DNA of 34,686 nt from Sedimentisphaerales bacterium (lineage in GTDB: Bacteria; Planctomycetota; Phycisphaerae; Sedimentisphaerales; UBA12454), in the NCBI GenBank assembly GCA_016930635.1, contig JAFGGI010000006.1, positions 1-34,686 on the forward strand, in the 5' to 3' direction. How positions within the stretch are numbered: the first letter of the stretch is position 1; every line of letters starts with the position of its first letter. The notes below the pieces were generated by a model that was not told where the DNA came from, did not search any database, and saw only the letters and a program-made list of their open reading frames with translations. Below, in pieces: positions 833-5,766 of this stretch. Both the position numbers and the translations under genes were made by a program.

Positions 833-1474
833 TTAAATTTTTTCAATATCTTCAGGTTTTTCAATCAGCCAGAAAGCCTCGTTATCACAGGCCGCCTTTG
901 CCTCGAAGCTGTCAGGCGAAAAACCGTAGCTGTCAATTATAATATCTTTTTTTGTATTCCAAACATTTTTCGGCAGTTCAATGATAATATCTGCATTTTT
1001 GATCGGTCTGGGGGAATACTGTCCGCCGTTGTCTTCATACGCAAAAAGCAGGATTTGGTTTGCCTCTAATTTTCCGTCATTCCAAAGGCTCAGGACCGCC
1101 CGGGCTGTTTCTTCGTGCCGCAGGTGCCTGGTGTATTCACCTTTTGGGCTGTGGGTCAGAATGATGTCAAAAGTCCTTTTCGGCAGCGTATTTAGAACAG
1201 TTTGGCGGATTTGTGCCTGTTCGAGGGGTTTTTGTTCTGCCTCGTCATCGAGGTCAGCCATAAAGCCTTTGGCCCCAAGCCGAGCGGCAACGGCTGTAAA
1301 TTTTGGAGCCCGGTCGGCATCGGACTTTCTGCACAGCGACAGTATCGTCCAGTTGATTTTGGGATTTGACAGGATAGTCCCGCCTGCCCAGAGAGTCTCA
1401 TCATCCGGATGCGCGACGATTACCGCAGCGGTTTTTACACTGCCAAAAACATCTTTTTCATTGACAAAACTCAA
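833..1474 (-). CDS. PIG-L (LmbE-like) family deacetylase
   Basis: The 213-residue product carries the zinc-binding signature AHPDDE near residue 21 and a downstream THSPKGEYTRHLRHEE segment that supplies the further metal-binding histidine. Both are hallmarks of the GlcNAc-PI deacetylase/LmbE family, whose members remove N-acetyl groups from sugar amides. Length fits single-domain members (about 200-240). The start codon is TTG, preceded by GGAAGG at good spacing, 15 nt after the SPFH gene. The substrate cannot be read from the sequence. The position in an operon headed by a glycoside enzyme makes a cell-envelope or exogenous glycan substrate possible, which is inference. Confidence 0.85.
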   Translation of the reverse strand: MSFVNEKDVFGSVKTAAVIVAHPDDETLWAGGTILSNPKINWTILSLCRKSDADRAPKFTAVAARLGAKGFMADLDDEAEQKPLEQAQIRQTVLNTLPKRTFDIILTHSPKGEYTRHLRHEETARAVLSLWNDGKLEANQILLFAYEDNGGQYSPRPIKNADIIIELPKNVWNTKKDIIIDSYGFSPDSFEAKAACDNEAFWLIEKPEDIEKI

Positions 1475-1489: not shown

Positions 1490-2431
1490 TCAGGCTGCAG
1501 TTGGAGTTTCCTTTTTGTCCTTAATTACCGAGGCAGCGGCTTTTATCATACCTGCAATATCAGAAAGATTCGAAGGTATAATTATCGAATTATTGGTCTT
1601 TGCAAGCTTGCCGAATTCATTTAAATACTGCTCAGCTATACGGAGGTTCACAGCATTGGTGCCGCCTTTTTCGTTTATAGCTAGCGCAATTTCCCTGATA
1701 CCTTTAGCTGTTGCTTCGGCAACTTTCTGAATTTCAATAGCCCGGCCTTCTGCTTCATTAATACGTTTCTGTTTTTCACCTTCCGAACGTGCGATCATTT
1801 CCTGACGGTCACCTTCAGCCCTGTTTATCTTTGCCTGCCTGTCACCTTCGGATTCGGCAATAGTTGCACGTTTCTCACGTTCAGCCCTCATCTGCTTTTC
1901 CATAGCATCTTTAATACTCTGAGGCGGCAGAATATTTTTAACCTCGTATCTTGTTACCTTGACACCCCATGGGTCCGAGGCTTTATCCACCGCATCGACG
2001 ATTACACTGTTTATGTTCTCCCTTTCCTCGAAGGTCTTATCAAGGTCGAGTTTTCCCATCACACTTCTCATTGTTGTCTGAGCCAACTGGGTAGCGGCGA
2101 ACCTGTAATTGTCGATTCCGTACGAGGCCTTTTTAGGGTCAACGACCTGCATATACAGGATACCATCGACTTCAACCGCGATATTGTCCCTGGTGATACA
2201 CGATTGCGGCGGGACATCGACAGCCTGCTCCTTTAACGTATGCCTGTATGACACTTTGTCGATAAATGGGATAAGTATGTGGAAACCGGCCTCGAGTGTG
2301 GCAGAATACTTACCGAGCCTCTCAACGATAAACGCTACTTTTTGCGGGACAATTCTTATAGTCTTGAAAAATACGAAAAGCGCAAAGACTATTATCGCAA
2401 TCAGAATAACTGTTAAAGGGTTAATTGTCAT
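1490..2431 (-). CDS. SPFH/Band-7 stomatin-like (paraslipin, QmcA-type) membrane protein
   Basis: A single hydrophobic N-terminal segment (about residues 6-24) is followed by a typical stomatin core: VPQKVAFIVERLGKY, GFHILIPFIDKV, then DVPPQSCITRDN and the VTRYEVKNILPP strand. Next is a charged coiled coil rich in AEGDRQ and SEGEKQ repeats (about residues 195-245). The 313-residue length is normal for the family. Such proteins form large oligomeric cages or microdomains in the membrane and act with NfeD partners; here nfeD lies 16 nt upstream. AGGAG precedes the ATG by 7 nt. Function as a membrane-microdomain scaffold is family knowledge, and any specific client is unknown. Confidence 0.92.
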   Translation of the reverse strand: MTINPLTVILIAIIVFALFVFFKTIRIVPQKVAFIVERLGKYSATLEAGFHILIPFIDKVSYRHTLKEQAVDVPPQSCITRDNIAVEVDGILYMQVVDPKKASYGIDNYRFAATQLAQTTMRSVMGKLDLDKTFEERENINSVIVDAVDKASDPWGVKVTRYEVKNILPPQSIKDAMEKQMRAEREKRATIAESEGDRQAKINRAEGDRQEMIARSEGEKQKRINEAEGRAIEIQKVAEATAKGIREIALAINEKGGTNAVNLRIAEQYLNEFGKLAKTNNSIIIPSNLSDIAGMIKAAASVIKDKKETPTAA

Positions 2432-2447
2432 GACTCTCTCCTTTCTC

Positions 2448-2906
2448 TTATATTGATTTTACCTTAAGTGTTAAATTGTCTTTTCCAATGATTTCAACGA
2501 CAGTGCCGGCCTCAATTTCCTCATCAGCCTGTGCATGCCAGTTTGTGCCGTGAAATTCGACCTTGCCTCCGATATTCGGCACTATCTTTTCTTTTACGAC
2601 AACCTTTTGCCCTGTGAATTCACTGATATCCTCTTTCAAATTCTGTTTTGAGCTTGTATGCCCGAGGAATATCCCCTTGAGCCACTTCCGCAGTAACAGC
2701 AGCGACAGAACAGAGGCAACTATGAAGATTATCAACTGGGCGTTTAACGAAATATCTGCGAAGAAACAAATAACAGCGACTATACAGGCTCCTAATCCGA
2801 AGAAAGCGACAATGAGCCCGGGCATCACAAATTCAGCGACCAGCAGCACAATGCCGATCAGGAACCATATAAGTTCCGGCTTCAAAAATTCTTTAATTGT
2901 CTCCAT
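2448..2906 (-). CDS. NfeD-like membrane protein with C-terminal OB fold
   Basis: The 152-residue protein has two to three membrane segments in its first 80 residues (WFLIGIVLLVAEFVMPGLIV; AQLIIFIVASVLSLLLL). A soluble OB-fold tail follows with the typical G..V...I.P.G.V...G..W.A....I..G..V.I pattern. This matches short-form NfeD proteins, which partner with SPFH/stomatin proteins; the long form's serine-protease domain is absent. The gene sits directly before the SPFH gene, the classic nfeD-stomatin pairing. A GGGAG ribosome site precedes the ATG. Confidence 0.9.
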   Translation of the reverse strand: METIKEFLKPELIWFLIGIVLLVAEFVMPGLIVAFFGLGACIVAVICFFADISLNAQLIIFIVASVLSLLLLRKWLKGIFLGHTSSKQNLKEDISEFTGQKVVVKEKIVPNIGGKVEFHGTNWHAQADEEIEAGTVVEIIGKDNLTLKVKSI

Positions 2907-2941
2907 TCAAGCTCCCTTCATATATTTTTTCTTTTATTTTT

Positions 2942-3256
2942 TTACTCTACTACCACAGCGGTTCCATAAGCTAAGAATTCAGATGCTCCCTGCATAACCA
3001 TTGATGTGGCAAACTGCATACCTACAACTGCATTGGCGCCTTGTTTTTCAGCCTCTTCTACCATTCTGTCAATTGCCTGCTCTCTCGATTCGCCCATCAT
3101 CTTGGTATAGTCGCTTATTTCTCCGCCGACGATGTTACGGAGAATGGCCATTATGTCTCTTCCTATATGTCTGGCGCGGATGGTGTTGCCTCTGACAAGA
3201 CCCAAATGCTTTACGATCTGTTTACCCGGGATAGTATGTGTTGTTGACAATAACAT
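2942..3256 (-). CDS. YbjQ family (UPF0145) protein
   Basis: The 104-residue protein aligns by eye along its full length to the YbjQ/UPF0145 family. Visible marks are TTHTIPGKQIVKHLGLVRGN at the start, a central GGEISDYTKMMGESREQAIDRM, and the closing GANAVVGMQFATS...FLAYGTAVVV. Members are small homopentamer-forming proteins of unknown function, sometimes described as heavy-metal-binding. AGGAG precedes the ATG. It lies 4 nt after the anti-sigma gene and 35 nt before nfeD, so it is almost surely co-transcribed. Confidence 0.9.
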   Translation of the reverse strand: MLLSTTHTIPGKQIVKHLGLVRGNTIRARHIGRDIMAILRNIVGGEISDYTKMMGESREQAIDRMVEEAEKQGANAVVGMQFATSMVMQGASEFLAYGTAVVVE

Positions 3257-3260
3257 TTTA

Positions 3261-3707
3261 TTATCTCCTTACATCTTTATAACGGTCTTTTTTTCTGAAG
3301 TAAAGTCTTTCTCTCAATACCGACACCAGCAATATTGCCAGCCCGGCTATCAGCACGAGCAAACCGGTTTTGAGAATGATATCCACAGTTGGGTCTTTGA
3401 CGAGCTCTTCTATTGCCCTGAAACCGCCGTAGATCAGCAGTAATATAGTCGCCAGTGAAGATAGAATCCACCCTGTACTTCGTTCGATGCGGTTATAGAT
3501 GCCTGACCAGTACATATCCCAAAGCTTATCTTCAGGCTCAGCCAGTGCGATATCGTCAGTTATTTTCTTGAGGTTTTTAAAGTCATCCAATTCAGCCTGG
3601 CATTGCCGGCAGGATGCTAAATGGTCTTCGAAGGCTCGTCTCTGTTCGTCTTCAAGTTCGTTGTCCAGATAGCCCATCATCAGATTTTTATAATTTTGGC
3701 AGGTCAT
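3261..3707 (-). CDS. Membrane-bound zinc-finger anti-sigma factor (zf-HC2/ZAS)
   Basis: The N-terminus holds the ZAS signature H-x3-C-x2-C (H29, C33, C36; DHLASCRQC), preceded by the typical YLDNELEDEQRRAFEDHL helix. A C-terminal region with two hydrophobic segments (around residues 80-95 and 108-130) would anchor it in the membrane. Family members bind and silence their cognate ECF sigma factor. The start overlaps the stop of the upstream GH130-sigma4 gene by 4 nt, with AGGAGG inside that gene's 3' end, so the two are translationally coupled, as sigma/anti-sigma pairs usually are. The odd point is that the partner here lacks sigma region 2. Confidence 0.88.
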   Translation of the reverse strand: MTCQNYKNLMMGYLDNELEDEQRRAFEDHLASCRQCQAELDDFKNLKKITDDIALAEPEDKLWDMYWSGIYNRIERSTGWILSSLATILLLIYGGFRAIEELVKDPTVDIILKTGLLVLIAGLAILLVSVLRERLYFRKKDRYKDVRR

Positions 3708-4825
3708 TTCTGTAGACCTCCTTTCGTACTGTCTAATATCTCTTTCATTTTTTTTCGGGCATAATATAGCCTGCTCATAACGGTTCCCTTATTACAGAAA
3801 AGTATTTGTGCTATTTTATCGTATGATAAATTATGAAAATGTCTTAATATGATGACTTCACGATGTTTGTCGTCGAGTCTGCTTATGGCAGCCCAGACCC
3901 TGTCGCGGGTTTCGTTTCTTTGTGCCACCGTTTCCGGGTCGAAACAGTCGGCGGCACCGTAGTACATATAAACCGTGCCGTTTTTGTTGAACCAGCCGCA
4001 TGGGAAAACCACATCGTCCACATCGCCTTCACGTTCATAATGAGCCTTGGGGCCGAAGATCCATTCTTCCGATCTGTGCAGTACCCTGGCCGGGTTATTG
4101 AGGTCGAGCATTGCCAGGCCGAGCCGGTAAATTGAGCCGGAGGCTGTCGTTCTTACACCGTGATAGAGTATCAGCCAGCCTTGTTCAGTTTCCATCGGCG
4201 GTGAGGAAAGGCCGATCTTTACCGAATCCCACCAGCCTCCCATTCTTGCGTGAATGATTTCCTGGTGGTCGCCCCAGTGCTTGAGGTTAGGCGAAAAGGA
4301 CAGCCAGATGTTTGCCTGTATATTCATGGTTTTTGATACCGGCCTGTGCAGCATTGCCCAGTAGTCGCCGAAGCGGACAGGAAAAAGTGCAGCGTCTTTG
4401 TCTTCAGGCGGCATAACAGCACCGATACGCTTAAAAGAGATGAAATCTTTTGTCGTTGCCAGGCTGACAAGCGGGCCGCCCTGCGAATAGGATGTATAAG
4501 TAATGACCCATTCGTTAAGTTCGGCAAGCCAGGTTATTCTTGGGTCTTCTATCCCCCAAAGTTCTTCCGGGTGTTTTTCTACATCAGGTATAAGAGTGGG
4601 TTTGTCGTCAATTTGCCAGTTGTCTATACCGTTATCGCTGCGAGCGGCAGTCAGGTGTGACATTCCACGGTAATCTTCGACGCGGACAAGGAGAAGTGTC
4701 TGACCGTTTACCTCGGCAGCGGCGGCATTGAAAACAGAGTTGGCTTTGTAAGGCCAGTTCTCAACGGAGAGTATCGGGTTGTCCGGGTGTCTGGTAAAAA
4801 GCTCATATTCAAGTTTCTTTGACAT
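3704..4825 (-). CDS. Fusion: GH130-type glycoside phosphorylase/hydrolase + ECF sigma factor region 4
   Basis: Residues 1 to about 293 resemble GH130 enzymes (five-bladed propellers acting on beta-mannosides and related glycans): SVFNAAAAEVNGQTLLLVRV, WGIEDPRIT with the family's catalytic-region Asp, PPEDKDAALFP, GGWWDSVKIG, LYHGVRTTASGSIYRLG and VFPCGWF. The domain stops at YYGAAD, roughly 20 residues short of the usual end. From residue 296 (DPETVAQRNETRD) the protein continues as the linker and region 4 of an ECF sigma factor, with AISRLDDKHREVIILRHF and an HTH (LSYDKIAQIL...KGTVMSRLYYAR). Region 2 (core and -10 binding) is absent. The frame is continuous across the junction near base 3946. 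An overlapping anti-sigma gene follows. It could be a real fusion, a deletion between neighbouring genes, or an assembly join. Confidence 0.82.
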   Translation of the reverse strand: MSKKLEYELFTRHPDNPILSVENWPYKANSVFNAAAAEVNGQTLLLVRVEDYRGMSHLTAARSDNGIDNWQIDDKPTLIPDVEKHPEELWGIEDPRITWLAELNEWVITYTSYSQGGPLVSLATTKDFISFKRIGAVMPPEDKDAALFPVRFGDYWAMLHRPVSKTMNIQANIWLSFSPNLKHWGDHQEIIHARMGGWWDSVKIGLSSPPMETEQGWLILYHGVRTTASGSIYRLGLAMLDLNNPARVLHRSEEWIFGPKAHYEREGDVDDVVFPCGWFNKNGTVYMYYGAADCFDPETVAQRNETRDRVWAAISRLDDKHREVIILRHFHNLSYDKIAQILFCNKGTVMSRLYYARKKMKEILDSTKGGLQK

Positions 4826-4937
4826 AATTCACATCCTTGTCAGAATTAATCTACCCAGTTAGAAAACTTCTATTGTGCTTTTTTATTATATACTATTTAC
4901 CATTTTAATCTTTATTAAAATTATTCTCTAACGGGGC

Positions 4938-5531
4938 TTACTTTCCTTTTCTGAACGGCCTAAACAGGCCGTTGATAACAACAGAGTGCCATCTTGGCCC
5001 GATGGCAAAAACTCCTTTTTCGACAACGTCAATATCCTCAATGGTATAGAAAGCAGTGGGGTCGAATTTGGTTACGATCTCAAGTGCCTTTTTCAGATGA
5101 GCCCGGTGCATAATTGAGAATACTAATTTTACCTGCCCGGCCAGGCCCTGTCCGTCAACGCTTGTTACACCATAACCTTCTGCCTTTAAATCTTCTATCA
5201 GACCTGCTGCATCTTTGCCGGTAATCACCCGCAGAAGCGCTTTACCCAGCGACAATTTTTCCGCTATACAGATGCCCACGAAATTACCCATAGCAAATCC
5301 GCCTGCGTAAGCGATGTAGCAGACAGGATTGGACAGGTTTTTCATTATCTGGCCGATCGCCAAAAGCCAGATGATGATCTCGAAAAAACCGATGACAGGC
5401 GCAAGATATTTTAGACCTCTGGAGACGAAAATCACCCTCATAGTGCCCATGCTGACGTCCGTTATGCGGGCGATAAAGATGAGCAGCGGCAGGATAAACC
5501 ATGAGTAAACCGGGTCTGAAATAAGCAGCAT
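4938..5531 (-). CDS. UPF0316-type membrane protein (DUF5698 + DUF2179)
   Basis: Three membrane helices fill the first 95 residues (SWFILPLLIFIARITDVSMG; YLAPVIGFFEIIIWLLAIGQ; VCYIAYAGGFAMGNFVGI). A soluble DUF2179-type domain follows, with EGYGVTSVDGQGLAGQVKLV and a FYTIEDIDVVEKGVFAIGP ending. This order and the 197-residue length fit UPF0316 proteins such as B. subtilis YebE. Known function is limited; the C-terminal domain may bind a nucleotide by analogy with related families, which is not proven. It lies on the same strand as the sigma-fusion gene but 112 nt upstream, so it is probably a separate unit. Confidence 0.85.
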   Translation of the reverse strand: MLLISDPVYSWFILPLLIFIARITDVSMGTMRVIFVSRGLKYLAPVIGFFEIIIWLLAIGQIMKNLSNPVCYIAYAGGFAMGNFVGICIAEKLSLGKALLRVITGKDAAGLIEDLKAEGYGVTSVDGQGLAGQVKLVFSIMHRAHLKKALEIVTKFDPTAFYTIEDIDVVEKGVFAIGPRWHSVVINGLFRPFRKGK

Positions 5532-5766
5532 TTTTAATTACCTGTAAACTGTCGCTAAAATAGTCTAACTTTCGGAACAAATTCAAGATTAATAGTAATA
5601 ACTTTACTTGTCAATTATGTTTTGTTGAAAATCAGCGTCTTATAAAAGGGAATTTATCAGCTTAAAAACCGGGGCTTTTGTGTTTTATTGTTTTTTTATG
5701 TTAATTTAATCTGTTTGCCGGCCGATATTTTCATAGTAATTAGGCCTAAAGTATAAGGAGATTTTA

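Follow-up and report, generated by a model that had tools for sequence, protein, structure and literature searches.

The reading frame at positions 3704-4825 (minus strand) joins a GH130 glycoside enzyme to region 4 of an ECF sigma factor, and raises the question of whether it encodes a working two-domain protein or is the product of a rearrangement. The frame lies in a stretch of 34,686 nucleotides from a Sedimentisphaerales genome, referred to here as the window. The most probable answer is that a lineage-specific in-frame deletion fused the GH130 gene to region 4, disabled the sigma factor and placed the downstream genes under the upstream region of GH130. The features concerned are as follows.

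4938..5531, minus strand: DUF5698/DUF2179 gene, next upstream of GH130 here as in several relatives
3947..4825, minus strand: GH130 part of the fusion, residues 1-293, to YYGAAD
3938..3955, minus strand: joint GCCGCCGACTGTTTCGAC, within GCxGAyT, a short similarity of GH130 and ECF genes
3704..3946, minus strand: ECF sigma region 4 with helix-turn-helix, residues about 294-373; region 2 absent
3261..3707, minus strand: zf-HC2 anti-sigma factor gene, 148 amino acids; Pfam PF13490, E 2.6e-10; HxxxCxxC
2942..3256, minus strand: YbjQ family gene, the third gene of a conserved ECF block
2448..2906, minus strand: NfeD family gene, from Pfam and orthologous loci
1490..2431, minus strand: Band 7 / SPFH gene, the last gene of the conserved ECF block
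833..1474, minus strand: PIG-L deacetylase gene, after the ECF block here and directly after GH130 in several relatives

Anatomy of the fused frame and its joint

The fusion is a single open frame of 373 amino acids comprised of a GH130 propeller followed by ECF sigma region 4. Residues 23-293 match Glyco_hydro_130 (PF04041, E 3.8e-52, profile positions 27-301 of 320) with a score of 177.7 bits against a cut-off of 26, and residues 308-360 match Sigma70_r4_2 (PF08281, E 6.6e-12), which contains the helix-turn-helix; both matches exceed the curated cut-off. No region 2 family was matched by Pfam in the frame. The frame shares its last 4 nt (ATGA) with the beginning of the anti-sigma gene. The HxxxCxxC motif of the anti-sigma factor reads HLASCRQC, and such a zf-HC2 domain beside a sigma gene is expected of a class I zinc-binding anti-sigma factor. 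A hydrophobic stretch in the same protein is read as a putative membrane segment. The anatomy given in the preliminary description, with GH130 running to YYGAAD and continuing into region 4, region 2 missing and the anti-sigma gene overlapping by 4 nt, is thus borne out by the frame and the Pfam matches. The length of the frame and its similarity to known families discount an origin by chance.

The joint falls between residues 293 and 294, at about 3944-3947 of the window, where the codons read TAC TAC GGT GCC GCC GAC / TGT TTC GAC CCG GAA. GH130 relatives carry GCx GAy TCx at this point (AADS, often AADSC; for example GCC GAC TCC TGC), and many sigma relatives carry GAy TGy TTy (DCF; for example GAT TGT TTT) just ahead of the region 4 linker. 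Both parents therefore encode (A)D followed by a codon beginning with T, and the shared GCxGAyT fits a deletion between a few common bases. One in three joints between genes on the same strand is in frame, so that an in-frame joint alone is weak evidence of function.

The parental genes in related genomes

A total of 161 genomes of the order of the host were searched. The anti-sigma gene is present in 59 of them, the host genome included. Its sigma gene keeps both region 2 and region 4 in all 45 assessable loci of the order, and is followed by the anti-sigma gene, YbjQ and often NfeD and Band 7. Three further sigma loci fall outside this count: L048 and L117 are cut by contig ends, and in L106 region 2 is present and a run of N takes the place of region 4. 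A loss of region 4 in L106 (G127, about 4800-5700) was considered and rejected, the runs of N lying inside a draft sigma gene. GH130 has close orthologs (identity roughly 66-74%) in a further 22 genomes of the order, and all 21 intact ones end in a C-terminal tail of 22-32 residues after YGAAD, then a stop, with no fusion. Region 4 of the fusion is up to about 76% identical to that of intact sigma orthologs.

A 105-residue junction query against 397 genomes of the class gave no other full-length match spanning the joint, and a search for the fusion in 84,980 species genomes and plasmid records gave, among the matches listed, matches to the GH130 part only. No paper on a fusion of a glycoside hydrolase with sigma region 4 was found in a literature search. 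An ancient conserved two-domain protein is rejected on these results, since the order holds no relative with the fusion and the sampled genomes of the class gave no match across the joint. The preliminary description had held that separate full genes in close relatives, with no fusion elsewhere, would speak against its proposal; the architecture search in relatives returned largely this picture. The separate genes count against a functional protein of ancient origin but have no bearing on whether the fusion exists. An intermediate state, with intact GH130 and intact sigma genes side by side, was found in no genome examined.

Within the host genome no other ortholog of the sigma factor was found, the next-best matches being 31-32% identical. 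A duplicate intact sigma gene elsewhere in this genome was accordingly rejected as a candidate.

What each half lost and kept

The fused GH130 lacks the C-terminal 22-32 residues of its relatives, which correspond to the last beta strand and a helix. An intact ortholog, modelled with a mean pLDDT of 86.8, has this strand at residues 295-302, as the third of its last blade, and the helix at residues 303-311. Both elements are absent from the fusion, so that its five-bladed propeller is incomplete. The model of the fusion has a mean pLDDT of 76.0 and still matches solved GH130 structures (best E 4.6e-25), but its confidence is lower for the last blade and the N-terminal stretch (70 for residues 11-20, compared with 92 in the intact ortholog). 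Region 4 was modelled without alignment rows, and its low confidence is for this reason uninformative. The crystal structure of BT3780 shows an N-terminal loop that lies against the C-terminal blade and thereby stabilises the fold (PMC4599007).

All columns that are invariant in 27 GH130 relatives are kept up to D293, including ED(P)R and the aspartate of GAAD. From its position near the C-terminus, this aspartate is probably the equivalent of Asp363 of BT3780, which is essential (PMC4599007).

Neither half shows an excess of changes. At positions that are near-invariant (the same in at least 90% of relatives), the GH130 part differs at 3 of 165 and region 4 at 2 of 34, both of the latter being conservative (K to R, L to M). 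The distance for region 4 divided by that for the anti-sigma factor comes to 0.90 (median 0.91), and the terminal branches are of ordinary length. Synonymous sites were saturated when dN/dS was attempted. The lack of excess decay in either half indicates that the event is recent or that the parts are still constrained; if the event were old, it would mean that the fusion is still under selection. The anti-sigma, YbjQ, NfeD and Band 7 genes downstream are intact and normally conserved.

Gene order

In relatives, GH130 often follows DUF5698 and precedes PIG-L; all three genes are found together in loci L036, L088 and L097, and one side of the arrangement in others. The order in the window is DUF5698, GH130 fused to region 4, anti-sigma, YbjQ, NfeD, Band 7, PIG-L. 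The PIG-L gene of the window is the sole match in the host genome to a GH130-adjacent PIG-L of a relative (53%). Comparison of the two orders thus shows that the sigma block, minus the start of the sigma gene, sits inside the GH130/PIG-L pair. The nearest GH130 relative by tree is in G005, a genome of the same family; there an intact GH130 gene has the same STAS and RNase III genes as neighbours, and the anti-sigma gene has no match in that genome.

The block of ECF sigma, zf-HC2 anti-sigma, YbjQ and often NfeD and Band 7 (1490-3707 in the window) is strongly conserved across the order (45 loci, for example L043, L044 and L121), its Band 7 protein showing 76-92% identity. The block may be an envelope stress system. 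In another genome (G115) the Band 7 gene of the sigma block is followed, about 3.6 kb further on, by a frame-shifted DUF5698 gene (locus L107, 12439-13030), the first 108 residues of which show 82% identity.

Origin of the fusion

The pathway that probably led to the fusion would have begun with the placement of the ECF sigma/anti-sigma/YbjQ/NfeD/Band 7 block between GH130 and PIG-L, as the gene order suggests. A deletion at the few bases shared at the joint would then have removed the end of GH130 and the start of the sigma gene, region 2 included. In sigma-70 proteins, region 4 without region 2 lacks the main contacts with core polymerase and with the -10 element, and the product would, from what is known of the family, be unable to act as a sigma factor. 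The most likely consequence of the event is a change of control, in that the anti-sigma, YbjQ, NfeD, Band 7 and PIG-L genes would now be read from the promoter of GH130 in place of a sigma-controlled one; such read-through is suggested by the tight spacing of the downstream genes in one row. A promoter scan of the upstream region returned no strong site, only weak matches to the consensus. The tail formed by region 4 may be carried along passively, maintaining a putative translational coupling to the anti-sigma gene through the ATGA overlap, and may also still fill that half of the anti-sigma factor which binds sigma-4. Among the alternatives in the preliminary description was a deletion that joined two genes, and it emerges as the best-supported reading from the gene order, the joint and the intact parents in relatives.

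It is unlikely that the joint is an artefact of the assembly or the library, that is, a false deletion or chimeric join in a genome whose GH130 and sigma genes are in truth separate and intact. The sequence comes from a single draft genome of 64 contigs, the locus is near a contig start and no relative shares the joint, all of which would agree with such an error. However, the block also splits the GH130/PIG-L pair at its far end, and a plain join of unrelated pieces would need two false joins, at either side of the block. Usual assembly overlaps far exceed a similarity of a few bases, and the bases shared at the joint are too few to deceive an assembler on their own. Furthermore, a search of the assembly for another copy of the lost region 2 was negative, and the frame remains open across the joint. 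Even less likely is a decaying pseudogene locus with no selected effect, where sigma function has been lost and stops have yet to accumulate in the fused frame. The single occurrence, the truncation of both parts and the intact second GH130 gene of the host would suit this reading, but the four genes from the anti-sigma factor to Band 7 have remained intact and conserved to the normal degree. It differs from the deletion-fusion reading mainly in whether the change of control matters, which sequence alone cannot settle.

The possibility that would matter most is a functional chimera, in which GH130 binds or processes a mannoside, region 4 binds the anti-sigma factor or DNA, and the state of the sugar controls release or occupancy. 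Conserved residues are retained in both halves, the GAAD aspartate among them. Class I anti-sigma domains bind sigma-4 via helix 1 and sigma-2 via helix 4 (PMC7406223); with separate contacts of this kind, half of the anti-sigma interface could by analogy remain. A precedent exists in split sigma systems with a separate sigma-4 protein, such as SigO-RsoA (PMC8103513). Against this, the fusion is seen in a single genome, and the last propeller blade is incomplete, with the confidence of the model reduced there and in the N-terminal loop relative to the intact ortholog. We know of no partner with region 2 alone for the fusion, and the host genome has a second, intact GH130 gene. A functional chimera is therefore considered very unlikely, and about as improbable is the form of it in which the propeller binds a mannoside and so tunes the occupancy of the membrane anti-sigma factor by region 4, as a switch that answers to sugar and needs no sigma factor. 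The sugar-responsive DNA-binding protein proposed in the preliminary description thus finds no support, as no relative has the architecture, the last strand and helix are lost and the contacts of region 2 are lacking. If functional, the chimera would be far more important than a deletion product, because no fusion of an enzyme to sigma-4 was found in the searches made.

Likeness to known systems

Residues 12-294 of the fusion are a clear family match to the GH130 mannoside phosphorylases (for example TM1225/1vkd, Teth514_1788/9gph and BT3780/5a7v). The fusion differs from these enzymes in lacking the final beta strand and the C-terminal helix and in carrying a DNA-binding tail. Its region 4 and the anti-sigma gene directly downstream with a short overlap resemble an ECF sigma factor with an adjacent zf-HC2 (class I) anti-sigma factor, whereas the absence of region 2 departs from the architecture that defines a sigma factor. 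The fusion, for which no partner with region 2 alone is known, shares with the SigO-RsoA system of Bacillus subtilis a protein that has sigma-4 but not sigma-2, and SigO is not described as fused to an enzyme (PMC8103513). Other sigma proteins joined to extra domains are the planctomycete ECF groups with N-terminal extensions (original ECF87-89) and ECF41 and ECF56 with C-terminal SnoaL-type domains (PMC8103513; PMC7730460). These are described as a sigma factor with an added domain, whereas in the fusion the extra domain replaces region 2. The locus is of interest as a gene fusion, apparently recent, for which both the parent genes and the gene orders can be identified, and it would illustrate the loss of the sigma factor from an ECF sigma/anti-sigma operon in which the anti-sigma and effector genes remain conserved.

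Other GH130 copies

The second GH130 gene of the host genome (G000 C15:56409-57314, plus strand; locus L002 1303-2433) is 56% identical to the fused copy and has an intact C-terminal end (YYGAADDKIAVATANMNAIREYIMMCPEAD). Broken GH130 copies occur at L042 9598-10472 (G047 C177) and at L099 (G061), one interrupted by a frameshift and the other by an in-frame stop, and the GH130 type of the fused copy thus seems prone to loss.
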